A stretch of 64,000 nt of DNA from assembly GCA_938045545.1 (NCBI GenBank), contig CALIBN010000007.1:80073-144072 (forward strand), in the 5' to 3' direction. The translations under genes and the position numbers were made by a program. The notes beneath the pieces were generated by a model. The model had not been told where the DNA came from and searched no databases. It worked only from the letters and a program-made list of their open reading frames with translations. This document shows positions 9,852-56,795 of the stretch, piece by piece (the first letter of the stretch is position 1; each line of letters begins with the position of its first letter). The stretch comes from an uncultured archaeon (GTDB taxonomy: Archaea; Thermoproteota; EX4484-205; JAAOZP01).

Positions 9852-11114
9852 ATGCTAGTTAAGATACCTTTCGGAAAGGGCTTTGAAGAGTGTGAGATTG
9901 AGGATTCCAGGATCCATGCTCATCTCGAGCCATCTTGGCCCACGCCTGGTAACCCTGATTTTTTCATTGAAAACGCTTTATCGAATCCGATAGGGTCTAA
10001 AAGCCTTGATGAGCTTGCCGAGAGTGCGGGCAGGATACTAATTATTACTAGTGATAACACTAGGCCCGTCCCGAGTAAAACTACTCTTCCAAGGCTTATC
10101 TCAAAAATGAAGAAGGCGTCGCCACAGGCTTCTATACGGCTGCTAGTGGCTACCGGGCTACACGAATGGTCTCCCAGTGGAAGCGAGTTGAAAGAGAAGT
10201 TCGGTCAGGCGCTGGACTATTTAGATGAGTTTGTTATTCACTCGGCTAAAAACGTTGGTTCGCTGGTTAACCTCGGCTCGTTGTCAACCGGCAACAGGCT
10301 TTACGTAAACACTCTTTTAAAAGAGGCCGACCTAGTGGTTTCTGAGGGATATATTGAGGGCCACTTCTTCGCAGGCTTCACCGGGGGGCCGAAGAGTGTT
10401 CTCCCCGGCGTTTCAGGGGTTGAGACCATAATGAACAATCACTCTCCGAGAAACATTGATCATCCGAACGCCAGGTGCGGTGTTGCTGAGGGAAACCCTA
10501 TATACGAGGAGATGCTGGAGGCAGCAAACATGGCAAGACTCCGCTTCATTCTGAACGTCGTGTTAGACGGTAGGAAGCGGATGCTTTCAGCCTTCGCAGG
10601 AGACCCGATTGAAGCGCATAGAAGTGGCCGTGTCTTCACTTTAAAATACTGCGGTGTGAAGCCAGTCCCAGGGGATATAGTAATAACTTCAAACGGCGGT
10701 TATCCTCTAGACCGAAACCTCTACCAGCTTGTTAAAGGTATTTCAAACGGTGCCCTGACGGCTAGGGAGGACGGTGTAATCGTGGCGTGCGGCGAATGCG
10801 TAGACGGGGTTGGGCACCAAGGGTTCTACGAGATGCTTGCCTCCTCAAGCAGCCCAGGCGAGTTTCTAAGGAGACTTAGGTCTGGAGAAATATGGAGGGA
10901 GGCGCAATGGGAGGCCCAGGTTTTGGCGAGAGTCTTAGAGAAGTTTCGCGTGATAGTTGTCTCAAGAGGCGTGGATTCGAAAACAGTTGAATCCATGCAT
11001 ATGATGCATGCGAAAAGCCTGAAGGAGGGTTTGGAAATCGCTCTTAGCCTCAAGCCTCTGGGGAGGATAACTCTTCTCCCCGACGGCCCTTCCACAATAC
11101 CTCTTCCACAATAA
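9852..11114 (+). CDS. larA-like: LarA-family nickel-pincer 2-hydroxyacid racemase/epimerase
   Basis: A 420-residue LarA/DUF2088 protein. LarA enzymes use a nickel pincer nucleotide bound to a lysine to racemise or epimerise 2-hydroxy acids by hydride transfer. Key residues can be placed against Lactobacillus LarA: 'SDNTRP' (D68, R71), H104 in 'ATGLHEWS', and H171 and K181 in 'GHFFAGFTGGPKSVLPG'. H197 in 'NNHSP' also fits. K181 matches the pincer-bearing lysine and H197 the nickel ligand, with constant offset. The substrate may be lactate, but homologues act on malate, phenyllactate and sugar acids. The larB/larC/larE cofactor genes are not in this window. A class II aldolase lies convergent downstream and an AOR beyond it. 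Confidence 0.88.
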   Translation: MLVKIPFGKGFEECEIEDSRIHAHLEPSWPTPGNPDFFIENALSNPIGSKSLDELAESAGRILIITSDNTRPVPSKTTLPRLISKMKKASPQASIRLLVATGLHEWSPSGSELKEKFGQALDYLDEFVIHSAKNVGSLVNLGSLSTGNRLYVNTLLKEADLVVSEGYIEGHFFAGFTGGPKSVLPGVSGVETIMNNHSPRNIDHPNARCGVAEGNPIYEEMLEAANMARLRFILNVVLDGRKRMLSAFAGDPIEAHRSGRVFTLKYCGVKPVPGDIVITSNGGYPLDRNLYQLVKGISNGALTAREDGVIVACGECVDGVGHQGFYEMLASSSSPGEFLRRLRSGEIWREAQWEAQVLARVLEKFRVIVVSRGVDSKTVESMHMMHAKSLKEGLEIALSLKPLGRITLLPDGPSTIPLPQ

Positions 11115-11155
11115 GCGGTTAGCAGCATACTGTCTATGCGGATTATCTGCCTACA

Positions 11156-11779
11156 TTACCATCTGGTGAATTCAACCGTCTTATCTCTCTTAGGCGGGAT
11201 GCCGGATGTGTGCACAAGATACCGGATCTGTGAGGAAGCCTCGATCATACAGGTGACGTGGTAAGCCTCTTCCAGGAGCTTAGCCGCGGCGAATGTTCCG
11301 TGACCCCTCACCACAACCCCCTTATAGTGTTTAAGCGCCTCCGAAACCTTTTCCTCAAGCTCCTTGGAGCCGCTCACTTCTTTAACAACAAGCACAGGTA
11401 CTTTTCTAAGCACGTAGTCTCCCTCGGCATCCATCGGAATTATCTCGTCGAAAATCAGTGAGCAGACTATCGAGTAGGGTGGGTGAGCATGTACAACGGC
11501 CAGTGCTGAAGTATTAAGATATATGGCCCTGTGAACCATGGTTTCAGAAGAGCTTAATAGTATGGAACTATCCTCCTCGAAAAGGTCTACTTCAACAATG
11601 TCCTCAGGCCCTATCTCGTCGGCAGCCGCACCCCTCCTTTTAATATACATCTTATCGCCAACCCTAACGCTTATGTTTCCGCTATGGCTAACCATGTAGC
11701 CTTTGTCGAAAAGCTTCTTGCCATACTTGCTTATCTCCTTCCAAACCTCGCTTACACCACTAATGTTCAATTCTCTCAA
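11156..11779 (-). CDS. Class II aldolase / fuculose-phosphate aldolase family
   Basis: A 207-residue zinc aldolase of the AraD/FucA family, of normal length. The family motifs are 'HSGNISVR' (32-39), E79, the zinc ligands H97 and H99 in 'VVHAHPPYS', and H160 in 'VVRGHGTFA'. These correspond to E73, H92, H94 and H155 of FucA. The family cleaves fuculose-1-P or rhamnulose-1-P into DHAP and lactaldehyde, epimerises ribulose-5-P, or decarboxylates related acids. The start is a TTG: no ATG fits the family N-terminus, and a TATA-like AAATATTA lies about 25 bases upstream. It faces LarA convergently. Lactaldehyde formed here could feed AOR-1 and then LarA (inference). Confidence 0.85.
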   Translation of the reverse strand: MRELNISGVSEVWKEISKYGKKLFDKGYMVSHSGNISVRVGDKMYIKRRGAAADEIGPEDIVEVDLFEEDSSILLSSSETMVHRAIYLNTSALAVVHAHPPYSIVCSLIFDEIIPMDAEGDYVLRKVPVLVVKEVSGSKELEEKVSEALKHYKGVVVRGHGTFAAAKLLEEAYHVTCMIEASSQIRYLVHTSGIPPKRDKTVEFTRW

Positions 11780-11849
11780 TTTTCCTTCTCATTAAAAGTA
11801 ATATTTAAAGACTCTGGGCGTTATTACGCAACTCTTTCCCCATCTTGTT

Positions 11850-12160
11850 TGCAATAATCTGCCTGAGCTAGTCTTACTCCTCCTCGATAAAGATGAGGAG
11901 TTCGCTATGCTGGGAGACTAGGGTTATCTGAAATCTTAAAGAGGCTTGATAGGCTTGAAAAACTAGGTTAGGCCGTGGGAGGATCAGAATAAGCTTTGGG
12001 AAGAGGTTAGGAGCATAAGGAGCGAGATCCGATACATGAGAGCCGAGTTAAGAGCTTCGGAAGAGCTGTTGGAAGGACTTTACAACGGCATTCGTGGAAA
12101 TCATCCTGGAAGAGAGGGTTACGCTAGGGCGCGCTCCAATAATCTTCAAACAGCACCAAC
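11850..12160 (+). pseudogene. Decayed DUF3782-like coiled-coil protein gene
   Basis: Three short frames read in order as 'LPELVLLLLDKDEEF', then 'GLSEILKRLDRLEKLG', then 'WEDQNKLWEEVRSIRSEIR' and about 35 further residues. Stops or frameshifts separate them near 11919 and 11970. This is the N-terminal and coiled-coil part of a family common in Thermoproteota (DUF3782-like, often linked to a PD-(D/E)XK nuclease domain). The nuclease part is absent or unrecognisable. With at least two separate lesions and a missing 3' part, it is a dead gene. The family call is from memory of the pattern. Confidence 0.5.
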
Positions 12161-12221
12161 TAAAGGTTTACACTCCCCAACTCCCATGGATTTAAGCATA
12201 GCTATTTTTTAATTTTTTAAT

Positions 12222-12323
12222 TCACATAAAGAATCGTATACGTTGCATTGGAAGCTCATTCATTTTTTTAAAAGAAGCTATCACCTCAGCTTCTGGAAGC
12301 AAGCTTGTTGCCCCTGTAAGCAT
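12222..12323 (-). other. Possible 33-residue ORF downstream of AOR-1
   Basis: An ATG frame begins 24 bases after the AOR-1 stop on the same strand and encodes 33 residues ('MLTGATSLLPEAEVIASFKK...'). The open frame extends upstream into the AOR tail in another phase. It resembles no family I know and could be a chance ORF or a truncated relic. The rest of 12160-12346 holds only T/A-rich sequence (two T-runs at 12205-12219). Confidence 0.15.
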
Positions 12324-12346
12324 GATTTCCAGTTTAACCCTTCTGT

Positions 12347-14125
12347 CTAACCATCCAAGTCCAATTTCTCAATTGTTCTCCTAGTTGGGCGCCCCTCATT
12401 ATCCCATCCTCTTGCCCTATAATACTCGTTAAGCATTAGGTCGAGCTCAACAACCTGCCCCTTTGTTGGTCCATCAGCCAATGGCTCGCTTAGAAGCCTC
12501 TTAGGAAGAGTATCATCCCTCCTGCTAAACCCCTCTCTTATGTTGAAAAGCCTCTCGAGGTTCCATATTCTCTCGCCTACGAGCATGAGGTCTTCAGCCG
12601 TATACTTTACGCCGGTTGCAGCTGAAAGCATCCTTGAGTAGTATTCTTCGTCAAGCCCGTATCCTGTGAACCTGCATGCTACGAGCGTATCCATGGCTGC
12701 GTAAAGGTTCTGCTGGTATATCACTAGGCCGGCCTTGTTGACCGTCGAAAACCTGTCTATCCTCTTCGGAACCCCAAGTATTTCCAAGCCTATCATATAC
12801 GACCTTAGGTGGCAGCCTCCCCTGTTGCTTGTGGCGTATGCTAGCCCCTGCCCCTTCGCTCCCCGGGGGTCGTAGGCGGGCAGCTCCAAGCCTTTAACAT
12901 GCATGGCTGCATCTGGATCCCCGTATTTCTCAGCGAGCCTACGCGAGCCCTCTGCAAGATCGTTTCCGAAGCCCTTCCTGTAAGCGGTTTCCTCAATCAG
13001 CTCCATGATTTTATCCCCGTCGCCCCACTTTACTTCCTCAGGCGTCAAACCCTTCTCGCTAAGCTCCATCGCGCAGGCTATCGTAACGCCTGTTGAAATA
13101 GTGTCCAGCCCAAGGTCGTTGCACAAATTGTTTGCCCTCCAAATCGTCTCAAGGTCCCAAAGCAGGCAGCAGGAGCCAAGTGAGAAGACTGTCTCATACT
13201 CCGGCCCCTCGCCCTCAGCACTGTCTAGACGAGTCCTCCTGCCGCACGAGATCCCGCATCCGAAGCATGCCTTAGGTTTAACAAGCAGCCTCCTGGTTAT
13301 CTCCTCTCCAGCAATATTCCTTGCCTCAGGCACGAAAGTTGCCTGGAAGTTTTTAGCCGGCAGCACGCCAAGCTCGTTCATAAGATTTACTAAAACAGCC
13401 GTCCCAAACCTGGGTAGGGCTTTACTCGTAATAGGGTTCTGGCCGAAAACCCTGTTGCATTCTCTGACTACGAAGAGAAAATTCTCCTTGTCGGCGATTT
13501 CAACTGTCTTGCTTCCTTTTGCGACGATTGCTTTCAGCTTCTTCGAACCCATTACTGCGCCGACCCCGCCTCTCGCAGCAGCCCTGTAGTAGTCGTTCAT
13601 TATTCCCGCTATTCTCACAAGGTTTTCCCCCGCAGGGCCTATGCACGCTACCCTGGCTTCCTTCCCGAACTTTTCAGTCAACATGCTCGTGGCTTCAAAC
13701 ACTCTCATACCCCAGTATTTTTCACCGTCTAGAACCTGAATATCCTTATCATCCATGTATATTATCACCGGGTTTTGAGCTGCTCCCCGGATTACGAGCA
13801 CATCGATGCCGCATGCTTTGAACCTGGTTGCGAAAAATCCTCCCGAGTTTGCGTCGAATATCGTGCCTGTCAACGGGGATTTGGTTGACACGGAGAACCT
13901 GCCTGAAGTCGGCGCAGCCGTTGCCGTAAGCGGGCCGACTGCGAAAACCAGCACGTTATTCTTGCTTAAAGGGTCAACTTCAGGGCCAACGTTGTCGTAG
14001 ACGATTTTAGCTCCTATTCCTCTTCCACCGATAAACCTGAGCTTCTCATCCTCATTCCACGTGCGAAAAGTTATCTTTGAACTAGACAGGTCTACCTCGG
14101 CGATTGATCCCATCCAGCCTGCCAT
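12347..14125 (-). CDS. aor: Aldehyde:ferredoxin oxidoreductase (tungsten), AOR-1
   Basis: A 592-residue AOR, close to the usual size of about 605. AORs oxidise aldehydes to carboxylic acids at a tungsten bis-pterin centre and reduce ferredoxin. The N-terminal 'IGGRGIGAKIVYD' and 'GPLTATAAPTSGRFSV' regions bind the pterins. The [4Fe-4S] ligands are C287, C290 and C294 in 'CFGCGISC' plus C484 in 'DTLVACRF'. No ferredoxin-like partner is adjacent, so free ferredoxin is the likely acceptor. It is divergent from a MoaD-like gene across 97 bases. The TATA box lies about 34 bases before the ATG. Substrate range is not readable; aldehydes from the nearby class II aldolase are candidates. Confidence 0.92.
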   Translation of the reverse strand: MAGWMGSIAEVDLSSSKITFRTWNEDEKLRFIGGRGIGAKIVYDNVGPEVDPLSKNNVLVFAVGPLTATAAPTSGRFSVSTKSPLTGTIFDANSGGFFATRFKACGIDVLVIRGAAQNPVIIYMDDKDIQVLDGEKYWGMRVFEATSMLTEKFGKEARVACIGPAGENLVRIAGIMNDYYRAAARGGVGAVMGSKKLKAIVAKGSKTVEIADKENFLFVVRECNRVFGQNPITSKALPRFGTAVLVNLMNELGVLPAKNFQATFVPEARNIAGEEITRRLLVKPKACFGCGISCGRRTRLDSAEGEGPEYETVFSLGSCCLLWDLETIWRANNLCNDLGLDTISTGVTIACAMELSEKGLTPEEVKWGDGDKIMELIEETAYRKGFGNDLAEGSRRLAEKYGDPDAAMHVKGLELPAYDPRGAKGQGLAYATSNRGGCHLRSYMIGLEILGVPKRIDRFSTVNKAGLVIYQQNLYAAMDTLVACRFTGYGLDEEYYSRMLSAATGVKYTAEDLMLVGERIWNLERLFNIREGFSRRDDTLPKRLLSEPLADGPTKGQVVELDLMLNEYYRARGWDNEGRPTRRTIEKLDLDG

Positions 14126-16510: not shown

Positions 16511-17089
16511 ATGAGCATGATTGAGAAAACCATAGTCTACTTTAGCACGCCTGGGAGGATCAATACTGAGACTGTTCTAGTTTTAGCGAGAAAGAGGGCT
16601 GAGGAGCTCGGCATAAGAAGCATCGTCGTCGCGTCTACAACGGGCGAAACTGGAGTTAAGGCCTCGCAGCTGTTTAAGGGCTTCAACCTGGTTGTCGTAA
16701 CCCATCATACGGGCTTCAAAGAGCTTGGGCAACAGGAGTTGACTGAGGAGAACCGTAGAATAATAGAGGCAAACGGCGCTAAGGTTTACACCGGGACGCA
16801 TGTCTTCATGAATGTTGAGAGGGCGATAAGAAGCAAGTTTAACACCGCTTACCCTGCTGAGATAATGGCTCAGACCCTTAGGCTTTTCTGCGAGGGCATG
16901 AAGGTGGCTGTCGAGATCGCAGCAATGGCTGCTGACGCTGGCCTAATACCTGTGGACAGGGATGTGGTGAGCATAGCTGGAACCGGTAGGGGTGCTGACA
17001 CCGCTATAGTTGTCCAGCCTGCTAACTCTTCTAGGATATTCGACATGATTATTAAAGAGATCATAGCTAAGCCTCTGAGCAAGGCATGA
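16511..17089 (+). CDS. Free-standing pyruvate kinase C-terminal-like domain protein
   Basis: A 192-residue protein made only of the alpha/beta domain that forms the C-terminus of pyruvate kinase ('INTETVLVLARKRAEELGI ... VVASTTGETG ... VVVTHHTGF'). No kinase barrel is present. In pyruvate kinase this domain binds allosteric effectors. Free copies are common in archaea and in anaerobes and have no established activity. A TATA-like GGCTTAAAAG (16471-16480) precedes the gene with a short leader. It is followed 15 bases later by the first aldolase-like gene, so it heads a four-gene unit ending in AOR-2. A regulatory or phosphosugar-sensing role is an inference. Confidence 0.75.
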   Translation: MSMIEKTIVYFSTPGRINTETVLVLARKRAEELGIRSIVVASTTGETGVKASQLFKGFNLVVVTHHTGFKELGQQELTEENRRIIEANGAKVYTGTHVFMNVERAIRSKFNTAYPAEIMAQTLRLFCEGMKVAVEIAAMAADAGLIPVDRDVVSIAGTGRGADTAIVVQPANSSRIFDMIIKEIIAKPLSKA

Positions 17090-17104
17090 GGAGTAAAAAG
17101 GCGG

Positions 17105-17938
17105 ATGGTTGAACATGGCTTTGCTGAAGCCTGTGATAAAAAAGAATTTGGAGGGCGTAGCGCCTTGTTCAGCCAGGTAGGGAAAGGGCTTAGGTTAAGC
17201 AGGATTTTCTCTAAAGACGGGAAAACGCTGATCATCGGTCTTGACTCTACTTTCGCAGGCGGACAGGTTGAAAACCTGTGGAGAACGCGAAGCATCCTGA
17301 CAAGCGTTTTAAAGTCTAATCCGGATGCCGTCATCCTTAGCAAGGGACAGGTCACCGGGCTGGAAAGCCTGATCGGAGGCAGAGGGCCCTCTGTTATAAT
17401 AAGGTCTGATTTCACGAATGCTGCGGTGGGCTATTCGACACTGCCCCGTAAAAAACTCGAGCATGTTAAACTAGTTAACCCTAGAGAGGCTTTGACATTG
17501 GGTGTTGAAGGTGTTGCCGCTTATCTTCTCGTCGGGGATGAGGATGAGGAGGCTAGAAGTATTAGAATTGTTTCAACACTCGTCTCGGGCTGCCGAAAGC
17601 TGGGGCTTCCACTCCTCGTGGAGACAATAGCATTAGGTGAGCGTGTCACTCAGGCTAACCGCCTAGACTGTTTAAAGCTTGCCGTCAGGATGGCTATTGA
17701 AGCGGGTGCCGACCTGGTTGCAGCACCATATGTTGGAGACGAGAAGTCTATGCGCTCCATAGTCGAGGTGTCTGGTCAAACCCCGGTTGTCGCAGTTGAC
17801 GATGCTGGGACTCCTCTATCAGAGCTTAGGAACGCTCTCTCAGCAGGATGCCTAGGCCTTCTTTTAAGGGAGAGACTGGCCTCGGGCGACGTTGAGGAGA
17901 CTGTTGCGGAAGCCAGGCTTCTAGTCCACGGGTGTTAA
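17105..17938 (+). CDS. DhnA-type aldolase paralogue lacking the Schiff-base lysine
   Basis: A 277-residue protein of the DeoC/LacD/DhnA class I aldolase fold. It aligns along its whole length with the aldolase half of the next gene ('GKGLRLSRIFSKDGKT', 'DEDEEARSIRIV', 'LGERVTQANRLD'). At the catalytic position, where the neighbour has Lys in 'ADALKVPY', this protein reads 'ADLVAAPY' (Ala206). The conserved 'DHG' loop is changed to 'DST' (D47 kept, His lost). A normal class I aldolase mechanism is therefore excluded. It may be a scaffold, a regulatory subunit or an enzyme with another chemistry. A purine-rich sequence (AGGAGTAAAAAGGCGG) before the ATG may act as ribosome binding site. The next gene follows after two bases. 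Confidence 0.8.
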   Translation: MVEHGFAEACDKKEFGGRSALFSQVGKGLRLSRIFSKDGKTLIIGLDSTFAGGQVENLWRTRSILTSVLKSNPDAVILSKGQVTGLESLIGGRGPSVIIRSDFTNAAVGYSTLPRKKLEHVKLVNPREALTLGVEGVAAYLLVGDEDEEARSIRIVSTLVSGCRKLGLPLLVETIALGERVTQANRLDCLKLAVRMAIEAGADLVAAPYVGDEKSMRSIVEVSGQTPVVAVDDAGTPLSELRNALSAGCLGLLLRERLASGDVEETVAEARLLVHGC

Positions 17939-17940
17939 GA

Positions 17941-19176
17941 ATGCAGATCGGCAAGAGGCTTAGGCTGAAAAGAATATTTGGCGAAGACGGGAGAGCCGTG
18001 GTCGTCGCCGCTGACCATGGGCTTATGCTTGGACCAATAAGGGGCGTTGTCAACCTGAGGGAAACACTTACCAGGGTTATTCAAGGGGGTCCAGACGCCA
18101 TTCTTCTAACCCCTGGGCAAGCATCCAGTCTAATAGACCTTTTCTACGGAAAGGATGCCCCTGCACTCTTGGTAAGAGCCGATTGGACGAACGCGTTCAG
18201 GGACAAGACCTACACTCTCCCGGCCAGAGTCATACGCGACGTAGACACAGTGAGGGTGGAGGATGCTTTAGCCCTAGGAGCCACCGGAATAGTAGTATAC
18301 CTTTTCATGGGTTTGGGCGACGAAGACGAGGAGGCTAGAAACATTGAAATGGTATCGGTGTTTTCACGCGAATGCGAGAAACAAGGCATGCCCCTCATAG
18401 TTGAGCCCCTCCCAATGGGTGAACGGGTAACGAAGGCGAACTACGTCGACCTCGTAGCTCTTTCAGTGAAGATCGCCGCTGAGCTTGGTGCGGATGCGCT
18501 TAAAGTCCCATACACAGGCGACCCGTACACTTTTGAAAAGGTTGTTAAAACTGCCGGTGGAATACCGGTGCTAGCCTTAGGTGGCTACAGTGGAGTCACC
18601 GTAAGAGACTCGCTGGAGGTTGTTGAAGAGGTCATGCAGGCGGGTGGTTCCGGAATCGTCTACGGAAGGAACATAGTGCAGGCCCAAGATCCCGGGGAGA
18701 TGGTAAGGCTCGTAAGGAGCATAGTGCACGAGGGTAGGAGCGCCTTGGAGGTGGTTGGAGCCGCCAAGAAGGGGAGGATTTCCCTCAGGGTTGAGCCAGC
18801 CCTCTGCGTCGGCTGCAGCCTGTGTGCCGCTGTCTGCAGCCTCTACCATGATGGGAGCATAGATATTGGGCGTGCTAGGCTCAGAGTTTTACAGGAGTGG
18901 CCAAGCGGAGCCAAGCCGGTTGTATGTGTTCAATGCGGGAAATGCATATCCGTCTGTCCAACTGGAGCCTTAAAATGGGGCTCGAAAGGTAATGTTGAGC
19001 TTGAGGAGAAGCTTTGCACATCCTGCATGGCTTGCGTGGAAACATGCCCGCAGAAGGTCATCGTGTTCGACGAGAAGAGGAATATTCCTCTGTTTTGCGA
19101 CCTTTGCGGCGGGGTTCCCCAGTGCTCGGAGTGGTGCGGCACAGCAGCCATAAGGATCGTAGAGGAGGATGCTTAA
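17941..19176 (+). CDS. DhnA-type class I aldolase fused to a 4x[4Fe-4S] ferredoxin domain
   Basis: A 411-residue fusion. Residues 1 to about 270 form a class I aldolase of the archaeal FBP-aldolase/DhnA/LsrF type, with D25 in 'VVAADHG' and the Schiff-base K188 in 'ADALKVPYTG'. Residues about 283-411 hold four cysteine groups: C289/292/295/299, C329/332/335/339, C359/362/365/369 and C386/389/395/399. This is the polyferredoxin subunit that accompanies many AORs. The ATG at 17941 matches the family N-terminus; a GTG at 17932 is possible. The gene overlaps AOR-2 by eight bases, so aldolase, electron carrier and AOR are translated together. The layout suggests that an aldehyde made by the aldolase is passed to AOR-2, with electrons leaving through the fused clusters (inference). 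Confidence 0.88.
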   Translation: MQIGKRLRLKRIFGEDGRAVVVAADHGLMLGPIRGVVNLRETLTRVIQGGPDAILLTPGQASSLIDLFYGKDAPALLVRADWTNAFRDKTYTLPARVIRDVDTVRVEDALALGATGIVVYLFMGLGDEDEEARNIEMVSVFSRECEKQGMPLIVEPLPMGERVTKANYVDLVALSVKIAAELGADALKVPYTGDPYTFEKVVKTAGGIPVLALGGYSGVTVRDSLEVVEEVMQAGGSGIVYGRNIVQAQDPGEMVRLVRSIVHEGRSALEVVGAAKKGRISLRVEPALCVGCSLCAAVCSLYHDGSIDIGRARLRVLQEWPSGAKPVVCVQCGKCISVCPTGALKWGSKGNVELEEKLCTSCMACVETCPQKVIVFDEKRNIPLFCDLCGGVPQCSEWCGTAAIRIVEEDA

Positions 19177-20989
19177 AATGAAGGGTGGCTACACGGGCAG
19201 GGTTCTAAGCTTCGACCTCTCCTTAGAAAAGGCTAAAGTTGGGGACTTGAACGAGAAGGAGGCTTTCCTACTGCTCGGTGGAAAGGGTCTTGGAGCCCTT
19301 CTCCTCTACAGGAGTCTGCGAGGTAAAGAGGATCCTCTCTCCCCTGAAAACCCTCTCATAGTTTCAACAGGGCCCTTGACAGGGACGATTGCTCCAACAG
19401 GCACTAAGTTCAGTGTTCTAACTAAAAGCCCACAGACAGGTGTTTTCCTCGATTCAAACTGCGGAGGAATGTTTGGAGTGCAGCTTAAGAGAGCCGGCTA
19501 CGATATGCTTATTGTCAAAGGGGCTGCTGAAGAACCCTCCATGCTAATAGTTGATGAAAACGGTGCTGAGCTTAGGCCCTGCAGGCTATGGGGCGTGACG
19601 ACGTTTGAAACAATCGCGGAGCTTAAGAAGGAGTTTCCCAACCGCGGCATCCTAGTAATCGGGCCCGCGGGTGAAAGGCTTGCTCCAATATCCGGATTGT
19701 TGACGGACGACGCGAGGTCTGCAGGCCGTGGCGGCTCTGGTGCAGTAATGGGCTCTAAAAGGCTTAAAGCAATAGTAGCGGGAGGCAGGAGACCAATAGA
19801 GGTTTATGATGCTGAGGGGATGAAGAGGGCTGCCTGGGTGGTCAGGAGGATGCTCAGGCTGCATGAGGTTACTGCGAGAAGCCTTCCGAGACACGGGACG
19901 GTGAACATAATAGAGGCTGTCAACGAGATGGGGGCTCTCCCAACGAGAAACTTTCAAAAAGGCAGGTTCGACGGCGCGGGCGAGCTTTCAGGGGAGAAAT
20001 GGAGGTCCGGTCTTTGGAGGAGGGATAAGGGTTGCTACGGCTGCACTATAAGGTGCGGGAAAATCGCTGTTTTAAACGGCTCATGGGTCGACGGGCCGGA
20101 CTACGAGACCATCTGGGCGTTCGGTCCAAACTGCGGTATCAAAGATACTAAAACAATAGCTATGGCTAACTATCTTTGCGACGACTACGGCTTAGACACG
20201 ATAAGCACCGGCGTCACGATAAGCTTCCTAATGGAGCTCTACGAGAAAGGCTTCATCCAAGACTTGGACGGGTTGAAGCCCATGTGGGGGGACGAGGATG
20301 TCTTTCTCAAGCTTGTGGAGAAAGCGTGTAAGGGCGAGGGGTGTGGAAGAATGATTGAGCAGGGTGTAGCCAGGGTGAGCGGAAAGTTCCCGGGCAGCGA
20401 GGCCTTCGCAATGCACGTGAAAGGATTGGAAATGCCTGCTTACGAGCCGAGGGCCGCTAAAGGAATGGGTCTTGGCTACGCGACCAGCGACCGGGGGGCG
20501 TGCCATCTTAGAGGATACACTGCTGGGCAGGAGCTGCTTGGGTACGGTGGGGGCGTAGACCCGTACACTATTGAGGGCAAGGCTAGGCTAGTGATAGATA
20601 GGCAGGACGAGAAGGCTGTGATAGACTCTTCAGGCCTATGCTTCTTCGCGTTTTACGCAATAACTCTTAAAGAGCTGCACCGCATGATTGTTGCCTGCAC
20701 CGGGCTCCCCTATAAAGACTGGTATGAATTAATGAGGATAGGGGAGAGAATCTACAACTTGACGAGGCTTTTCAACATTAGGGAGGGGTTAACCAGGAAG
20801 GATGACACTCTGCCCAGCAGATTCTTAAAGGAACCCATGCCCGAGGGACCTGGAAAAGGACAGGTGGTTGAGCTTGAACAGATGCTTTCCGAATACTATA
20901 GGCTCAGGGGTTGGAACGAGAAAGGTGAGCCTAAAAAGGAAACTCTTGATAGTCTAGGGTTAAACGAGCTTCTTAAGACGAACGAATAG
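19169..20989 (+). CDS. aor: Aldehyde:ferredoxin oxidoreductase (tungsten), AOR-2
   Basis: A 606-residue AOR, full length. The pterin-binding N-terminal region ('LGGKGLGALLLY', 'GPLTGTIAPTGTKFSV') is intact. The [4Fe-4S] ligands are C289, C292 and C296 in 'CYGCTIRC' plus C491 in the canonical 'DSSGLC' motif. It shares its general plan with AOR-1 but differs in many places, including the C-terminal motif. Two starts three codons apart (19169 and 19178) are possible; the first overlaps the upstream fusion gene. Its electron partner is almost certainly the fused ferredoxin domain upstream. A T-rich sequence just after the stop probably ends the transcript that starts at 16511. Confidence 0.92.
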   Translation: MLKMKGGYTGRVLSFDLSLEKAKVGDLNEKEAFLLLGGKGLGALLLYRSLRGKEDPLSPENPLIVSTGPLTGTIAPTGTKFSVLTKSPQTGVFLDSNCGGMFGVQLKRAGYDMLIVKGAAEEPSMLIVDENGAELRPCRLWGVTTFETIAELKKEFPNRGILVIGPAGERLAPISGLLTDDARSAGRGGSGAVMGSKRLKAIVAGGRRPIEVYDAEGMKRAAWVVRRMLRLHEVTARSLPRHGTVNIIEAVNEMGALPTRNFQKGRFDGAGELSGEKWRSGLWRRDKGCYGCTIRCGKIAVLNGSWVDGPDYETIWAFGPNCGIKDTKTIAMANYLCDDYGLDTISTGVTISFLMELYEKGFIQDLDGLKPMWGDEDVFLKLVEKACKGEGCGRMIEQGVARVSGKFPGSEAFAMHVKGLEMPAYEPRAAKGMGLGYATSDRGACHLRGYTAGQELLGYGGGVDPYTIEGKARLVIDRQDEKAVIDSSGLCFFAFYAITLKELHRMIVACTGLPYKDWYELMRIGERIYNLTRLFNIREGLTRKDDTLPSRFLKEPMPEGPGKGQVVELEQMLSEYYRLRGWNEKGEPKKETLDSLGLNELLKTNE

Positions 20990-25921: not shown

Positions 25922-28018
25922 ATGGTGAAAGGCATGAGTGAGGAAAAAGAATTCCTCCTCGGCAAATTTTTGAAGTCTCGAGGATTCATAGTTGGCCTAG
26001 TAATCTCCATAGTGATGATGCTAATACAGCTTTCAATAGACTGGACCAACGTTAATCTGACGCTGTGGGGTATGAATGCTGGCGCATTTCTAGTCCTATT
26101 TGTGCTGGCAATACTTGGCTACTTTCTCAGTTCCCTGAGGCTCAGGGCAGACGAATACGCTATCGTTTTCGCCATGGTGACGGTGAGCCTTGGCTTCGCC
26201 TGGTCTGTAGCCGTACCATTTTCAATATCGATTTTCAACACAGCTTGGGAAAAACAATGGTGGTACATGGGATACTGGGTGTCCACAATACCGGGAGCCC
26301 TGGAGATGAGCCCCCTTTTCGGAGTAAAGGACGCAGAGGCGGCTTTAGCTGCTTTCACCGGGGGAACCTCTGTTCCTTGGGCGGCTTGGGCGCCTGCGTT
26401 AGGCTACTGGATCGTCTTCACGATAGTCTTGGTAGTATTCATGATTTCAATGGGGATGATACTTCGGAAACTATGGATAGACATTGAGAAACTTCCGTTC
26501 CCATATTTGAACATTACTAATGAGCTTATCAATTTGGGTCTTGGCGTAACCGAGAAGCCCCGCGTGAAAAAGATACTGATAGGCATACTCATAGGCTTTC
26601 TACTAATGCTCGGGAACCTAATAGATGCCTTGGCACCCGGGAGAGGATGGAACCTGTGGCAGACCTACCACATTGAAGCCTTGGAGGTCGCATTGCCCAA
26701 TTCAAGCTGGTTCTTCAGCGTTTCACCATCTCAGCTAAGCTTATGGTATCTCGCACCGCTGGATGTTCTCTTCACCGCCGTAATCGCCTGGTTTATATTC
26801 GCAGACATTATTCCAGCCATATCAGCTTGGGCAGGATACGCGGCGCTGCAGGCACCTTGGGGAAGCTCCGGGGGAGCATGGCACAACATGGCTTCAGGCG
26901 CTATCGCACCTGTTTCCGGCGGTATGATCGGATGGGGCGCGATGATCGGCTTAGGCCTCTGGCTTCTCGTCTACGCAAGGAAATACATTGTTTCCACGCT
27001 TAAAAACGCGTTTGGCAAGAAGGTGCTGGACGAGTCTAACGAGCCGTTCTCGTACAGAACTCTCTGGCTGGCCTTCATAGTTTCAATCGTGCTGCTCATA
27101 GTGCTCATGGTCGCCGTCTACATTCCAGTCTGGGCAGCAGGTATAATCGTAGTATATACTTGTCTCCAGTATGTTGCGACATCCAGGATCCGTGGTGAAA
27201 GCATAGCGAAGGGTGACATTCCCTGGGAATCACAGGAGGTTTTGGCCACGCTATTGTCTCAAGCAGGCCTCTACTCGCTCGTCGGACCCCAAGCATCGGC
27301 AGCGTCTCAAGCTGCATACGGGCCAGGTGCCTACACGGCTTGGAACATGGGTTACGTGGTGACTGGGCACTACACGTGGTACTGGGGCGGCGCGGGCACG
27401 CCTCAGAGCGCTCAGCTTGAAGCCTTCAAATTGGCGACTTTAACCAAAACACATAACAGGGCTATGGCTATTTCAACCATTGTGGCCATGGTCCTCGCTG
27501 TCCTCATATGTCTCCCGCTGTGGCTGGTCTTCACGTACATGATTGGGATTGACAAGGGCTTCGGGCATGGCGGCACCCTCTACAGCCAGTGGGTCAGCCC
27601 AGCATGGTGGAGTCAAGAAGCCATTTTTAACGCTGCTTTTAACCAAGCTCAAGGCTGTTCCTGGTTTAACTGGAACAAGGACCTGCTGGGACTTGAGCTG
27701 GCGAACTGGGCTGCAGGCTTCTTCCTCGCCGGAGTTCTTCTCTGGGCTAGGGTTGCATTCGCCCGGTTTCCATTGAATCCGGTGGGTCTCATCATAGGCT
27801 TGTGCCAGCCTGCACACTGGCTTTGGGGCTACCTTCTTGTCGCATGGGTTTTGAAGTTTATAACGTTTAGAATAGGCGGCTCAAAGCTCTATGAAGAAAA
27901 AGGCGTGCCGCTGGCGATAGGGATATTCCTAGGCTCATTCATAGTATCCATAATTACCGACATATTCCTGCCGGTTGCACAAGCAGGAATAGAATGGGCT
28001 CCTGCTGTTCCAGGTTGA
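25922..28018 (+). CDS. OPT-like (DUF6785-type) polytopic membrane transporter
   Basis: A 698-residue membrane protein with about 14 hydrophobic segments. 'VPWAAWAPALGYW' followed by 'RKLWIDIEKLPFP' near residues 144-192 is typical of the OPT-related DUF6785/DUF6784 family. OPT proteins import oligopeptides or metal chelates; the role of DUF6785 members is unproven. The ATG at 25922 is 27 bases from the centre of a TATA box (ACTTAAATAG, 25891-25900), so the transcript should be leaderless. Met5 has no better support. It precedes the M28/FtsX fusion, and a second OPT-like gene follows that fusion, which suggests a joint uptake function (inference). Confidence 0.7.
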   Translation: MVKGMSEEKEFLLGKFLKSRGFIVGLVISIVMMLIQLSIDWTNVNLTLWGMNAGAFLVLFVLAILGYFLSSLRLRADEYAIVFAMVTVSLGFAWSVAVPFSISIFNTAWEKQWWYMGYWVSTIPGALEMSPLFGVKDAEAALAAFTGGTSVPWAAWAPALGYWIVFTIVLVVFMISMGMILRKLWIDIEKLPFPYLNITNELINLGLGVTEKPRVKKILIGILIGFLLMLGNLIDALAPGRGWNLWQTYHIEALEVALPNSSWFFSVSPSQLSLWYLAPLDVLFTAVIAWFIFADIIPAISAWAGYAALQAPWGSSGGAWHNMASGAIAPVSGGMIGWGAMIGLGLWLLVYARKYIVSTLKNAFGKKVLDESNEPFSYRTLWLAFIVSIVLLIVLMVAVYIPVWAAGIIVVYTCLQYVATSRIRGESIAKGDIPWESQEVLATLLSQAGLYSLVGPQASAASQAAYGPGAYTAWNMGYVVTGHYTWYWGGAGTPQSAQLEAFKLATLTKTHNRAMAISTIVAMVLAVLICLPLWLVFTYMIGIDKGFGHGGTLYSQWVSPAWWSQEAIFNAAFNQAQGCSWFNWNKDLLGLELANWAAGFFLAGVLLWARVAFARFPLNPVGLIIGLCQPAHWLWGYLLVAWVLKFITFRIGGSKLYEEKGVPLAIGIFLGSFIVSIITDIFLPVAQAGIEWAPAVPG

Positions 28019-41448: not shown

Positions 41449-44196
41449 CTATTGGTTAACCGCTGCGTAAAGTTTTTCTGAAAACATCATGTCAACCAGC
41501 GAGCAGAAAAGCGCGGTTGAAACAGGGTCTTTAACCAGGTTTTTCATGAGCCTGAAGGTACATAGGACTGCAATCCCTGCTCCAATCTTCACTGGAAGTA
41601 TTGTGGCCGCGGGCTCCCGAATCCAGCCGACGAAAACTCCTCCGAAAGCGCTCCTAGAATTTCTAGGGTTCAACCCCTCTAAAACCATGCTGGGGATGCA
41701 CTCTATAAACGGCATTCCTAAGTGACCCTCGTAGAAAAGCCTGTTTGCAACATCCTTCTTAAGCCAGAGGAATGCTGTACACCAGTCTCCCCAGCGACCC
41801 TTTTCTCCTCTCTCAACTAAGCGTAAACCACCGAATATTATGGAGCCTGCTTCAGACTCTTCAAGGAGAAAGAGCACCCTACCCCCTTTCTCAGCAAATT
41901 TTAAAGCATTCTCATTAACTCCCAGAGACACGGCTACACTGGATTCACCGGGCTCAACAATGGTTAAACCTATTTCCCCAATCTTCTCCAACATGCTTGC
42001 GTCAGCCCCGAACACGATAATCCTCCTACTAGTCTTGACGGACCAAGCTGGAAGTACAAGAACTTCCTGATAGTTTCGACAGACCTCTCTCCCATCATTG
42101 TCGAGCAGCCTAGCCCATACTGTCAGCTTTCCCGGCTCGCCTATTTCTGGAATCCTGAAACACGCCTCACCCGCCTCAACGCAGCAGGCCCTCTCAACAC
42201 CCGTCAGCTTCAAAACTCCGCCAACCGGAATGTTTTCGACCCACCATTCGACAGCTTTCGGCTCAATGGCTGAAAATCTAGAAACGTGGATTTTTACCTT
42301 CGCTTCCTCGCCCTCAATATAGCTCCATTTTCCGGGCCTTATTACGACGACATCCTGCGCTTGAAAGAATCTCAGGAAACGGTGTAGAATCTTCTCCCCC
42401 CTACACATATCCATGAGTCCATTGCTCTCACTGTTCAAGTCTGTAAACTGCGTTATGACGTAGCCAACTATCTCTGGGTGAAGCCTCATTGTTTCAACCT
42501 CGAACTTTAGGGAGTCAAGCTGATGTTTTTGAGCGGCTTCTGCAAGCTTCTTCAACGAGCCGTAAGCCTCATCCAGCCCCAGCCTGAAGAACTCGTTAAT
42601 ACCCGTGCGAACCGGCCCCCCGTAGCTCGCCTGATTAAACCAGTACGGGTCCCTCCAATCATAGTAGCGGAGAACCTCCTCAACATCAGGAAGCCCCCAG
42701 TTGCCGAACTCTGAAACCATCAAGGGTTCTAAACCCCTTCTCTCAGACTCTGGGAACCTAAAAGTCCAAGCGGGGTGTTTAGAAAAATCCTCCACCCAGT
42801 CTTCGAACTCTCGAGCATGATCGGGTATCGCCTTATAGACATGCTGGTCCTCAATATCGCTCACAACATGCCCCGCGTTCGCAGGAGAATTGTCAACCAC
42901 AAGCCTGGTGGGGTCGAGCCTTTTAACCAAGTGCCACATCTCCTTAAGCCACCTTCTCGCCTCCTCCTCTTCGGCAAGCGGAACACCCCACTCCTCATTC
43001 ACCAGACACCAGCAGAAGACTGACGGATGGTTAAAATCCCTCCAAACCCATTCTTCAAGCTCCCTCCTCATCCTTTCCCTCGCCTCAAAGGTGAACCTGT
43101 AGAAGCTCGGAAAATCTATCCAAAGCATGATTCCAATCCTGTCGGCCCATTCAAGATAATTCTGACAAGGGATCTTGATATGGGTCCTCAGAAAATTAAG
43201 CCCCAGTTCCTTGGCTTTGAGAAACTGGTTGCGAAGCATCTCTTCTGAAGGCGTGCCATATATTACGTCCGGGTAGAAATCTTGGTCGAGCGCCCCCATA
43301 AGGTATAGGGGCTCGCCGTTAAGGAGAATCCTGTTCTCACACACCTCAACCTTTCTCATGCCGAAATCTACGAAACAGGCGTCTTCAACCCCTTCCCCGG
43401 AGAGAACGATTTCAAGCCTGTATAGGAAGGGAGAATCTGGAGACCATAGTCTCATCCCCCGAATAGGTATTTCAACGTCGTAAACAGACTCGCCTTTAAC
43501 CACTTTGAAGACTTTTTCTTCCCCGCTTGGAGAAACCTTAAGAGTTAATCTAAGACCATCCTCAGGAGCCTCGTCAACGTGGGAAAGAATTATGCGAACC
43601 CTAATTCTTGAATTATCAACCTCCGGCACTATGAACGCTGAATGCACGTAAATCCTTCCCCTGACGAGGAGGCTGACTCCCTGCCATAGGCCGCCAATAT
43701 TGCAGTAGTGAGACTGCTTACCGTTAGGGATTTCAGAGCAATCCTGAGGGTCGTAAACCCTAACCATAAGCTCGTTCTCCTCGTCGAATTTCACGATGCC
43801 TGTTACGTCGAATTCAAATGGAGTATAGCCTCCCTCATGGGAGCCAAGCTCAACGCTGTTCAACCATACTTTAGCCTCGTAATCAGCAGCGTCAAATCGG
43901 AGGATGATCCTCTTACCCGCCAGCATGCGTGGAATTCTAAATCTACGCCAATACCATGCAACCCCGTCATAATTTATAAGGTCTGGGAACTGTGCCTCCC
44001 AAGGTAAGCCTGCCCTTGCTTTTCTCACATCCCTGACGGAGCGAACACTCTCCGGAGTAAGCTTTCCCTCAGGGTCAACAGCGAACATCCAGTCTTCATT
44101 AAGAATAATAGTATGTTTAACGGAAAGCTTAACGTTTGACGCAAAGCCTTCGACTCGACTCCCCATTTCCCAGCTTCCCGTAAGCAAGCCGGTCAT
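41449..44196 (-). CDS. Glycoside hydrolase family 2 enzyme
   Basis: A 915-residue GH2 protein. An N-terminal jelly-roll sugar-binding domain ('YWRRFRIPRMLAGKR ... NIGGLWQGVSL') spans about residues 30-185, followed by an immunoglobulin-like domain (190-285). The TIM barrel has acid/base E401 in 'CWCLVNEEW' and nucleophile E496 in 'MVSEFGNWG'. A further 350 residues of beta domains and a possible amidotransferase-like module complete it. GH2 covers beta-galactosidase, beta-glucuronidase and beta-mannosidase. 'NEEWG' and 'SEFGNWG' do not settle which, though two mannosidases nearby favour a mannose-containing glycan. There is no signal peptide. A TATA box (AATTTTTAAAT) is centred 29 bases before the ATG. 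Confidence 0.88.
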   Translation of the reverse strand: MTGLLTGSWEMGSRVEGFASNVKLSVKHTIILNEDWMFAVDPEGKLTPESVRSVRDVRKARAGLPWEAQFPDLINYDGVAWYWRRFRIPRMLAGKRIILRFDAADYEAKVWLNSVELGSHEGGYTPFEFDVTGIVKFDEENELMVRVYDPQDCSEIPNGKQSHYCNIGGLWQGVSLLVRGRIYVHSAFIVPEVDNSRIRVRIILSHVDEAPEDGLRLTLKVSPSGEEKVFKVVKGESVYDVEIPIRGMRLWSPDSPFLYRLEIVLSGEGVEDACFVDFGMRKVEVCENRILLNGEPLYLMGALDQDFYPDVIYGTPSEEMLRNQFLKAKELGLNFLRTHIKIPCQNYLEWADRIGIMLWIDFPSFYRFTFEARERMRRELEEWVWRDFNHPSVFCWCLVNEEWGVPLAEEEEARRWLKEMWHLVKRLDPTRLVVDNSPANAGHVVSDIEDQHVYKAIPDHAREFEDWVEDFSKHPAWTFRFPESERRGLEPLMVSEFGNWGLPDVEEVLRYYDWRDPYWFNQASYGGPVRTGINEFFRLGLDEAYGSLKKLAEAAQKHQLDSLKFEVETMRLHPEIVGYVITQFTDLNSESNGLMDMCRGEKILHRFLRFFQAQDVVVIRPGKWSYIEGEEAKVKIHVSRFSAIEPKAVEWWVENIPVGGVLKLTGVERACCVEAGEACFRIPEIGEPGKLTVWARLLDNDGREVCRNYQEVLVLPAWSVKTSRRIIVFGADASMLEKIGEIGLTIVEPGESSVAVSLGVNENALKFAEKGGRVLFLLEESEAGSIIFGGLRLVERGEKGRWGDWCTAFLWLKKDVANRLFYEGHLGMPFIECIPSMVLEGLNPRNSRSAFGGVFVGWIREPAATILPVKIGAGIAVLCTFRLMKNLVKDPVSTALFCSLVDMMFSEKLYAAVNQ

Positions 44197-44420
44197 GCTT
44201 AACTGAAAGGTTAAACAGACATTTAAAAATTACTTTCCTCCATGTAAATCTTTAACATAAACTGGGGAAGATTTTAAGCCAAGCCTGCATATCCTTACGA
44301 TTTGGCGTTCTCAACACATCGTGCTTTAATGCAGCCTGTTTTCCATTTCAACTTAAAACAGTCATGCTTAAATATTGTTTAACGAATCAGAATCTGGTGT
44401 AATGGAGCTTGAGGCTCTGG

Positions 44421-45513
44421 ATGTTTGGAATTCCAAGGCTCGAATACGCTGACTTCCTTCTTGAAAAAGGTTTTAAAGATATTGTTGTTAGTTATGATCC
44501 GGGGCTGGTCAAAGGATTACGGGATAAGGGCTTTTCGGATTGACAACGAGTTTCGAGATCCGAAGTTTCTAGCGGAGGACCCGTATGGTAGGAAGAACAT
44601 ATGGTTTGGATCTGGATGCCCTAATAATCCTGACATAAGGCGTAAGACACTCCAGCAGGTTTCCGAGATCCTTGAGAAACATGATGTCAGCAGCATTTTG
44701 CTTGACGGAATCCGATTTGCATCTGTGGGCAGTGGGATTGAGGCTTTCGCGACGTGTTTCTGTGAAAATTGTAGGAATAAGGCTGAGGAATACGGCTATC
44801 GTTTTGAAGAGATGAAGCAGTCGGTTGAAAAAATGCTCAATGCTTTCCACGATTTTAAACAGGCTTGGGAGGTTTGCAAGCATACCGTTCTTCCCCAGTA
44901 GGTTTCATGGATCTTGTCACAGAGGGGCGTGGCCTGTTTGATTGGCTTGAGTTTCGAGAACGCAGTGTTGTGGAGTTCATAATAAGTTAGAAACATGATC
45001 AAGTCGTACAGTAGGAAGACTGGCCTTGGTGCCTACGTTTTCACTCCTTCACTAGCCTTTCTGGTCGGCCAGAACTACCGGAAGTTTTGGCGCTACCTGG
45101 ATATCGTTAAACCCATGGTTTACAGGAAGGGGCGTGGTGTCGCCTGCCTAAACTTTGAACTGGCTAAACTCGCTGAAGACTTGCTCCGTTGGAATCCATG
45201 GCTGGCTGAGGCTGAGCTTATAGACATGCTCTACCGGATTTTCGGCTTCCGAGGAGAGGAGTATCCTCTAAGCGTCAATAGGCTGTTTGAAGATTGCCTA
45301 CCCGTATCTGTGCTTAAAGTCGAGTTTCAAGCCGCTAAAAAGCTAATAGCGGGCAGGAGCGAGCTTCACCCCATTACAATGCTGGACGACCCGCAAATCG
45401 AACAGGCTGTTAAACTCGCTACAGAAACAGGATTGGATGGGATCGACTTCTTTTCCTTCCGAGAGGAGGAGAAAAACAGGATTAGCAGGATTTCGGAGGC
45501 AATTGGGAAATGA
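44421..45513 (+). pseudogene. Decayed TIM-barrel glycosidase-like gene (copy of the next gene)
   Basis: The ATG at 44421 gives 'FGIPRLEYADFLLEKGFKD', which shifts frame near 44520 to 'FRIDNEFRDPKFLAEDPYG ... SILLDGIRFAS ... CFCENC'. After 44901 the match continues in another frame with 'MDLVTEGRGLFDWLEF'. It shifts again at about 44985 to 'GLGAYVFTPSLAFLVGQNYRKF' and on to 45513. The order and motifs match the intact protein that follows ('VVLDFIRFES', 'CFCPSC', 'LLAGQNYRAL'), so this is a broken paralogue from a tandem duplication. The pseudogene stop overlaps the start codon of the intact copy. Confidence 0.75.
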
Positions 45514-46790
45514 AACCCATAGGTGCTTTCATCAGCCTTAAAACTCTGAAAGAGTGTGGAAACAGGCTTCTGGAGGATTACGGGATAGAGTATGCGCATA
45601 CGCACCTGCCTGTTTTCCCAGACGAGGTTAAAGAGCTCTACAACGGTGTGAGGTGTCTCCCGGAAAACTTTGAGAAAGAATCCTACAGTGATCTTAAGAG
45701 GCTTCTCGAAGAGTTACGCGGAGTAGGCTTGAAATTCTTCGCCAGCTATCCTGTTTTCAGCAGGCCCGAGATAGCTAGAAGAGGACCCGAGTATTCCGCA
45801 TGGACCATGCTTGGAAAGCCTCATTATGCTAGAGCCTGTCCGACAAACCCTGATGTTTTAAGAAGAATAGTCGCGGATCTTCGAAGCCTCGTGAGACTAT
45901 ACGGGGTGGATGGGGTTGTGCTCGACTTCATCAGGTTTGAAAGCCCAATGGCTGGCTTAGACTATTTTCTAACATGCTTCTGCCCTAGTTGCTGTGAAGA
46001 AATGAAGAGCCTAGGTTACGACCCGGTTTCCATCAAGAGAGACTGGCTAGGCATGATAGACTTCCTTGGCAAGGGAGAGTTTCCTAAGGAGATAGTTAGG
46101 CAGGGAACCTTAAGCACGCCGGATGTTCTGGACCTTTACAATGAGTTTCCAGGGGTGTTTGAATGGTTCAAGTATAGGAGCGAATATATTGAGAACGTTG
46201 TTAAGATTTTCTCTTCAGCAGTCAAGGAGGAAGGTGGTTGTGGAACAGTCATCGGCGCCAATCTTTTATCACCGTGGTGGAGCCTGCTGGCCGGCCAAAA
46301 CTATAGGGCTCTCAGCCGAATTCTCGACATTGTTGAGCCGATGCTCTATTTTGACTGGATGCAGTGGGAGGGGTTGACAGCGGTCAAGGAGCTCAGCCAT
46401 ACTTACGGCGTCGACAAGGATCTTCTCAGCAAGTTTTACTACGTGGCTACAGGGTTGAGCACCATAGTTCAGCCACGTAACTACGATGAAACAAGGCTCT
46501 CAGGACTACCTTCAAGTTCAATAGAGGCAGGCCTTATGAAAATCTCCTGCTGGAATGTTGGGGGAGCTAGAATATGGCCGGTCGTGTTGATCCTCCGCAC
46601 TGACTTCGTGCATCATCTGCTTGGTGAACGTATTTCAAACATCTCTATGGCCACTAGAGAGTTCTTTGCGGAGAGTGTTAAGTCGGCGGTACGCGGCCAT
46701 GCCGACGGGCTAGTATACTGGAACTTTGACGGTGCTGAGAAAGATGTTGTACGGGAGCTTTACACTGTTTGGAGGACTGAAAGCCTGTAA
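45510..46790 (+). CDS. TIM-barrel glycosidase-like protein with CxCxxC motif
   Basis: A 426-residue protein. 'VDGVVLDFIRFESP' resembles the 'D-x-x-x-x-D-x-x-R' strand of the putative glycosidase families GHL10 and DUF4015, and 'TCFCPSCCEEM' provides a C-x-C-x-x-C group. This is a frequent structural or metal site in such barrels and in GH42. 'VEPMLYFDWMQWEG' would form a later strand. I cannot place it in a numbered GH family or name catalytic acids with confidence; the Asp of 'VLDFIRF' is a candidate. There is no signal peptide. The start codon overlaps the stop of its decayed tandem copy. Confidence 0.6.
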   Translation: MKPIGAFISLKTLKECGNRLLEDYGIEYAHTHLPVFPDEVKELYNGVRCLPENFEKESYSDLKRLLEELRGVGLKFFASYPVFSRPEIARRGPEYSAWTMLGKPHYARACPTNPDVLRRIVADLRSLVRLYGVDGVVLDFIRFESPMAGLDYFLTCFCPSCCEEMKSLGYDPVSIKRDWLGMIDFLGKGEFPKEIVRQGTLSTPDVLDLYNEFPGVFEWFKYRSEYIENVVKIFSSAVKEEGGCGTVIGANLLSPWWSLLAGQNYRALSRILDIVEPMLYFDWMQWEGLTAVKELSHTYGVDKDLLSKFYYVATGLSTIVQPRNYDETRLSGLPSSSIEAGLMKISCWNVGGARIWPVVLILRTDFVHHLLGERISNISMATREFFAESVKSAVRGHADGLVYWNFDGAEKDVVRELYTVWRTESL

Positions 46791-46799
46791 GCATAGCTG

Positions 46800-49727: not shown

Positions 49728-49746
49728 GAGGCCCCTCAGTTGCAGG

Positions 49747-49758
49747 ATTTATATAAAT
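49747..49758 (-). promoter_or_regulatory. TATA box of the first GH38 gene
   Basis: The palindrome ATTTATATAAAT is centred 25-26 bases before the ATG at 49727 on the minus strand. The PIG-L gene ends 32 bases upstream of it on the same strand, so the mannosidase may also be transcribed by read-through. Confidence 0.55.
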
Positions 49759-49789
49759 CTTTTGAGAGTAGCCCATGCTAGCTGCTTTA

Positions 49790-50563
49790 TTATTCTCTTA
49801 TGAAATGGCCTGCCCCCACTCTAAACATTCTCATGGGTTCTACGCATCTTCCTTTTTTCCTATTCTTTCTCCTCAAGTTTCTAACCAACTCCTTTTTCAC
49901 TTCCTCTAAACCCTTCTTCGTAAGATCCACCGGAAACGATAAGGACAGTTGGCTCTCATGTCTCATGATTGCCTCAGCTTTCTTATCTACATGTTTGGCG
50001 ATGTCGATGAAAAGATTTGGGCTATCCGTAGCGAACAAGAGTATGAAATCAGGCTTATGAGCTTCAATTCCTGAAAGAATTTGCTCCTTGTAGAAGTTCG
50101 GCATGCCAGCGAAAACCGTCGCCTCCGAAGCCATAAGTCCAGTAACCCTGTGGTCAGGATGTATTTCGTAAGGAAGCCAAGCGTCCAGCGTCATGACAAT
50201 TTTCGGCTTAACCGTTCTTATTATTTCAATAAGCCTCCCTCTTAATTCGAGAGAAGGATATAGGTCGCCATCAGGATATCCTAGGAAGAACAGGTCCTTT
50301 ACGCCAAGCACATCTGCCGCGGCCCTCTGCTCCCTCCTCCTAGTCTCGCTTAAAACCTTAGGATCTACGTTCACGTCGAAAGTTCCCTTGCTTCCATCAG
50401 TCACAGTAGCGTAATTTACAACGCATCCTTCTTCAACCATCCTCGCTATGGTTCCGCCAACATAGTACTCCGCATCGTCAGGATGAGCTTGAATAACTAA
50501 GACTATGTCTCCTTTCCCCCATATCTTTTTTGATCCGGCTCTCGCCATGACTGTGGCGGGCAT
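49790..50563 (-). CDS. PIG-L/LmbE-family N-acetylglucosaminyl deacetylase-like
   Basis: A 257-residue zinc deacetylase of the PIG-L family (BshB, MshB, DIG/DAC). The zinc motif 'AHPDDAE' (26-32, with H27 and D30) and the second motif 'HPDH' (135-138) are both present. The family removes acetyl groups from GlcNAc-containing molecules such as glycolipids, chitobiose or thiol precursors. In this glycan island, deacetylation of an N-acetylhexosamine is the most likely role. The ATG at 50563 was used, although Met6 (50548) is equally possible. It precedes the GH38 gene on the same strand and is divergent from the helical glycosidase-like gene across 69 bases. Confidence 0.88.
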   Translation of the reverse strand: MPATVMARAGSKKIWGKGDIVLVIQAHPDDAEYYVGGTIARMVEEGCVVNYATVTDGSKGTFDVNVDPKVLSETRRREQRAAADVLGVKDLFFLGYPDGDLYPSLELRGRLIEIIRTVKPKIVMTLDAWLPYEIHPDHRVTGLMASEATVFAGMPNFYKEQILSGIEAHKPDFILLFATDSPNLFIDIAKHVDKKAEAIMRHESQLSLSFPVDLTKKGLEEVKKELVRNLRRKNRKKGRCVEPMRMFRVGAGHFIRE

Positions 50564-50602
50564 AAGGCAAGTAAAAAATCTTCCGCCGATGGCTGAAAAT
50601 AT

Positions 50603-50613
50603 GCTTAAATAAG
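50603..50613 (+). promoter_or_regulatory. TATA box of the gene at 50633
   Basis: GCTTAAATAAG is centred 25 bases before the ATG at 50633, predicting leaderless transcription. The same A/T block read in reverse (CTTATTTAAGC) could serve the divergent PIG-L gene with a longer leader. Confidence 0.5.
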
Positions 50614-50632
50614 ACTGTAAAAGCGAAAAACC

Positions 50633-52576: not shown

Positions 52577-52598
52577 GAAGAATAGTGTTCAACGGAGT

Positions 52599-56762: not shown

Positions 56763-56795
56763 CATAAAAATCGGGTCAAAACCCTCTTACTCAAA

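Follow-up and report, generated by a model that had tools for sequence, protein, structure and literature searches.

What is a class I aldolase doing in the same polypeptide as a four-cluster iron-sulfur domain, immediately upstream of a gene for a tungsten aldehyde oxidoreductase (AOR)? The question is raised by a stretch of 64,000 nucleotides (hereafter "the window") from a Brockarchaeota-like archaeon, in which the original prediction had noted this arrangement and suggested that the aldolase releases an aldehyde beside the tungsten site. On the best reading of the sequences, the module (Table 1) represents, under the published classification (PMC13328260), a class II tungsten oxidoreductase with an aldolase-fused small subunit and with a pseudo-enzyme as its third gene.

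Table 1. Genes of the module and associated features in the window.
Feature	Coordinates	Strand	Basis or remark
PK_C protein (stand-alone pyruvate-kinase C-terminal domain)	16511..17089	+	Pfam PK_C 1.2e-11
Short DhnA-type paralogue, predicted non-catalytic TIM barrel	17165..17938	+	Pfam DeoC 3.1e-10, homologue alignment
Fusion, DhnA-type class I aldolase + WorS/AorA-type four-[4Fe-4S] domain	17941..19176	+	Pfam, Cys groups
AOR-2, tungsten aldehyde oxidoreductase large subunit (WorL)	19178..20989	+	Pfam AFOR_N 8.5e-64, AFOR_C 3.7e-137
Class II aldolase and AOR-1	11156-11779 and 12347-14125	-	Second aldolase/AOR pair, outside core module

The union of a DhnA-type aldolase with a domain of 16 cysteines in four groups holds up: the fusion is a single open frame (17932/17941-19176, with GTG 17932 as an alternative start), and the Pfam domains and the cysteine pattern agree. 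The eight-base overlap that had been described between the fusion and AOR-2 is doubtful and probably a start-codon artefact. The longest AOR-2 frame opens at ATG 19169, which directly abuts a GGAGG motif at 19164-19168, while the in-frame ATG 19178 stands at a spacing of 9 nt from it; 19178 is therefore the likelier start, leaving a gap of one base after the fusion stop codon (19174-19176). For the short paralogue, whose longest frame runs from 17105, the probable start codon is TTG 17165, the position at which the homologues begin; a GGAGG at 17150-17154 precedes this codon. Two genes upstream of the fusion had been assigned to the same unit. The lysine-less aldolase paralogue belongs to the conserved core, but the PK_C protein does not: it was seen to adjoin the module only in genomes of the window's own genus (L035/L036) and was for that reason ruled out as a core member. 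The window's remaining neighbours of the module likewise accompany it only within that genus. Elsewhere in the window (9852-14125), AOR-1 shares a strand with a class II (fuculose-type) aldolase, and a LarA-type racemase is convergent to them; this group may constitute a lactaldehyde-to-lactate route.

The Fe-S half spans approximately residues 280-411 of the fusion, its Pfam Fer4 domains following the aldolase barrel after a linker of only a few residues, and it carries 16 cysteines in 12 of the 14 complete copies that we found (17 in one, 15 in one). A profile built from these 14 fusions matches, over residues 276-410, the small subunit of WOR5 (WOR5-S, 6X6U_B; 5.7e-36), AorA (8C0Z_C; 2.3e-30) and the 9MQX_E small subunit (1.1e-28). 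AOR small subunits are the best single-function-subunit matches of this half, and no solved chain spanning both halves of the fusion was among the matches listed for the profile. By homology, then, this half can be assigned specifically to the small subunits of AORs, those of the WorS/AorA type. It also always adjoins an AOR with an intact active site; together with the homology, this supports the proposal that the cysteine domain is the electron partner of an AOR. AOR-2 itself matches the Pyrococcus furiosus enzyme PfAOR (1AOR) at 2.6e-153, its large subunit being nearer to PfAOR than to WOR5. The AOR active-site residues E313, Y427 and H448 and the four cluster cysteines are kept in all sequence-complete copies, and the T243 position is Thr except for Ser in two copies. 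The AF2 model of the fusion has a pLDDT of 83.9 and a pTM of 0.76.

The aldolase half (approximately residues 1-276) matches Pfam DeoC/LacD over residues 23-250 (2.1e-35), and its fold matches that of MJ0400 (2QJG; Foldseek 1.9e-23). With the ADTH synthase MJ0400, the T. tenax FBP aldolase (1OJX) and LsrF it shares the TIM barrel, the DH motif, the Schiff-base lysine and the phosphate loops. Both D25 and K188, which had been singled out in the window copy, were found there along with H26 (counting from ATG 17941) and E155. No fusion deviates at the Asp or His of the DH motif, and the phosphate loops (GG, GRN/GRQ) have been retained. Twelve of the 14 copies carry the Schiff-base lysine, and exactly these 12 have Glu at the position of Trp144. 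The fused half nevertheless departs from the MJ0400/T. tenax type in several ways: besides the Glu in place of Trp144 and the C-terminal Fe-S domain, the catalytic Tyr (Y146 in T. tenax and also Tyr in MJ0400) is replaced by Leu, Val or Ile in all 14 fusions, and the fusions and short paralogues form a separate clan, split from all other DhnA proteins tested (tree support 100/99). NCBIfam scores of the fusion also fall below the cut-offs (167.3 vs. 299.45 for ADH synthase; 165.5 vs. 430 for archaeal FBPA). With the Tyr missing and the clan separate, a canonical archaeal FBP aldolase or ADTH synthase identity was rejected. A Tyr-type DhnA protein (L001) is encoded elsewhere in the window's genome.

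Where the T. tenax FBP aldolase and MJ0400 use Tyr, most class I aldolases use Glu, as set out in the LsrF paper (PMC2728841). In a profile alignment, the "IIEP...YKVE" of YihT falls on the "IVEP...LKVP" of the fusion, that is, on E155 and K188, the Glu lying on the strand before that of the Lys. YihT is a class I sulfofructose-1-phosphate aldolase; its cleavage of a ketose-1-phosphate yields DHAP together with a small aldehyde (PMC12890257). It has no Fe-S domain and is approximately 24% identical to the fusion over 143 columns; we take the likeness as one of mechanism only. The retained Lys/Glu/Asp set and loops, the alignment with YihT and the usual role of Glu in class I aldolases all contribute to our view that the fused domain looks catalytically competent, with a Glu/Lys site. 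Single-domain DhnA proteins of one other family, f21 ("IIEPLF"; L016-L018, L020-L022, L024, L025, L027, L029, L034), likewise combine the lysine with Glu at the Trp144 position and are possibly an unrecognised Glu-type DhnA subfamily.

The short paralogue has the same barrel as the fused domain in its AF2 model (pLDDT 81.8; best PDB match 2QJG), the Schiff-base lysine is absent from every copy and so are the GG/GRN phosphate loops, and it is predicted to be a non-catalytic aldolase pseudo-enzyme. Lysine is also missing from two of the fusions, both in second module copies (L043:1946-3175 in G056 and L044:9787-11016 in G032). Here Glu replaces the Lys and Thr replaces the Glu, a joint loss that was probably a single evolutionary event, and the Fe-S and AOR parts have stayed intact despite it. 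Aldolase chemistry thus appears to be dispensable in at least one lineage, and these two copies count, on the residues they carry, against an obligatory aldolase-to-AOR reaction.

They also lend weight, as does the short paralogue that never has the lysine, to a different role for the barrels: these might chiefly build a multimeric base on which several WorS-AOR units are brought together or electrically connected, with aldol chemistry secondary or lost. DhnA relatives form decamers (PMC2728841, PMC4881948), oligomerisation can be directed by AOR small subunits (PMC10413684), and a scaffold ring would match the role of the AorA C-terminal helix in the Aromatoleum AOR filament. On the other hand, the Asp, Glu and Lys and the GG and GRN/GRQ loops are retained in 12 of 14 fusions despite large divergence, which is hard to account for without catalysis. 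We regard a mainly structural role of this kind as unlikely.

Whether the fusion recurs beside AOR genes can be answered plainly: it does. Our search covered whole genomes of the window's phylum and of four of its classes, and one pattern scan looked beyond this archaeal phylum. The whole-genome search returned 14 complete fusions in 12 genomes, belonging to six families and four classes of the one archaeal phylum and 45-89% identical to the window copy; an additional genome (G077) holds only the C-terminal part of a fusion, at a contig edge. The fusion-bearing genomes, those of several uncultured heat-loving archaea, come from independent assemblies. Named matches include Candidatus Brockarchaeota DRTY-6.bins.80 and SJ3.Bin56 (89-90% identity, from the window's genus) as well as "Bathyarchaeota" B24 and QZM_A2_bin_24. 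The distribution is patchy: in one class the fusion occurs in 3 of 257 genomes, in another in 1 of 81. Every copy with readable flanks places the short DhnA gene first, then the fusion, then the AOR, all on one strand (in L098 the contig edge is reached before the short gene). The gaps between the longest reading frames run from -29 to +15 bp between the short gene and the fusion and from -49 to +21 bp between the fusion and the AOR, the latter junction being an overlap or a very short gap in all copies. Since the fusion recurs with this fixed order across independent assemblies, an assembly join or chimera is ruled out. Phage and plasmid relatives amounted to nothing but generic aldolase or partial matches, at less than 60% identity. 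The short gene and a truncated fusion also turn up on a 3.2-kb contig assigned to a Phycisphaerae MAG (L050:1588-3235), which is probably archaeal DNA in the wrong bin.

Among 301 genomes, 11 of the 12 relatives of AOR-2 at E<=1e-170 lie in the module; the twelfth (G076, 49%) adjoins a MoaD-like gene and has no fusion beside it. Pairwise distances among the aldolase half, the Fe-S half, the short gene and the AOR are correlated at r 0.80-0.91, part of which is owed to shared species history. Fusion and co-occurrence by themselves are no proof of a shared substrate; the aldolase might serve a sugar pathway and the WorS domain might serve AOR-2 on an unrelated aldehyde, the two being co-regulated with no transfer between them. 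The strict gene order and the way in which all parts, the short paralogue among them, diverge in correlation over four classes tell against such independence, which we consider quite improbable.

Glycoside hydrolases, PfkB/FGGY kinases, xylose-isomerase-like proteins and sugar dehydrogenases occur near the module in the window and in L037, L038, L039, L041 and L044, and no carbohydrate genes of that kind occur near L098 and L099 in the stretches read; these are raw gene contents of those stretches. Carbohydrate genes around most copies fit a reading in which the aldolase and the AOR act together in sugar cleavage. They sit poorly with the opposite direction, in which AOR-2 would draw low-potential electrons from ferredoxin through WorS to reduce a carboxylic acid, and the aldolase would capture the aldehyde so formed by joining it to DHAP or some other keto compound, giving a biosynthetic or acid-scavenging route. 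AORs are able to reduce acids at low potential (PMC9295118), and instant trapping by an aldolase would pull an otherwise unfavourable acid reduction; with sugar-degradation genes (glycoside hydrolases, kinases) in most neighbourhoods, however, we think operation in reverse very unlikely. Also in the vicinity of the module are DUF6785/6784 membrane proteins, which adjoin it or lie near it in the window (25922-28018) and in two other copies (L037:11074-13107; L044:6874-8913). Further along (41449-59893), the window encodes glycoside hydrolases of families GH2 and GH38, two of the latter, and several UroD-like methyltransferases.

Given the AOR-type small subunit, the adjoining intact AOR, the parallel divergence and the recurrence of the order across classes, an aldolase-WorS-AOR complex is the most economical explanation of the locus. 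We put the probability at roughly 0.55 that the three genes encode one complex, with AOR-2 as WorL, the WorS domain tethered to the aldolase and the dead paralogue as a partner barrel. It is from these features that we infer a physical complex, its direction, its substrate and any channelling. Fused and short barrels would mix in a DhnA-type, decamer-like core, where the Lys188/Glu155 site would use Schiff-base chemistry to cleave a ketose phosphate, or a keto sugar related to one, into DHAP and a small aldehyde; candidate aldehydes are those of the lactaldehyde, glycolaldehyde and glyceraldehyde types. AOR-2, kept alongside by the WorS domain, would oxidise this aldehyde to the acid, and the electrons would travel from the AOR cluster by way of the WorS domain, with its four clusters, to free ferredoxin. 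A more tentative proposal, whose chances we rate as somewhat less than even, is a covalently organised metabolon: active and dead barrels would form a decamer-like ring whose WorS arms each hold an AOR, aldehydes from aldol cleavage would be oxidised without first being released, and their electrons would leave directly as reduced ferredoxin.

In its electron-transfer parts, the proposed complex has known counterparts. Class II WOR consists of WorL and a four-cluster WorS and passes electrons to ferredoxin (PMC13328260), and the class II tungsten oxidoreductases WOR5/ASOR of P. furiosus and GOR of Caldicellulosiruptor bescii likewise combine an AOR-family large subunit with an adjoining four-[4Fe-4S] small subunit. 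There, however, WorS is unfused, whereas here it is joined to a class I aldolase and a second aldolase-like gene lies upstream. The A. aromaticum AorABC (8C0Z) and the 9MQX complex also pair an AOR-type large subunit with a homologous four-cluster small subunit, but neither small subunit has an aldolase, and AorABC has an FAD subunit for which no gene adjoins the module. PfAOR, the closest large subunit to AOR-2, acts without a small subunit, a point that speaks against the proposed complex. The text of the 2026 survey that classified tungsten oxidoreductases makes no mention of aldolases (PMC13328260), and we found no description of an aldolase-polyferredoxin fusion beside an AOR in the open papers searched.

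A physiological role has been defined in only 5 of 92 tungsten-oxidoreductase clades (PMC13328260). The conserved fusion of a small subunit to an aldolase thus offers a direct genetic clue to the source of the aldehyde for one AOR. Should the complex exist, cleavage of a sugar C-C bond and ferredoxin reduction would be coupled within one assembly, which would provide a physical handle on variants of glycolysis in uncultured archaea.
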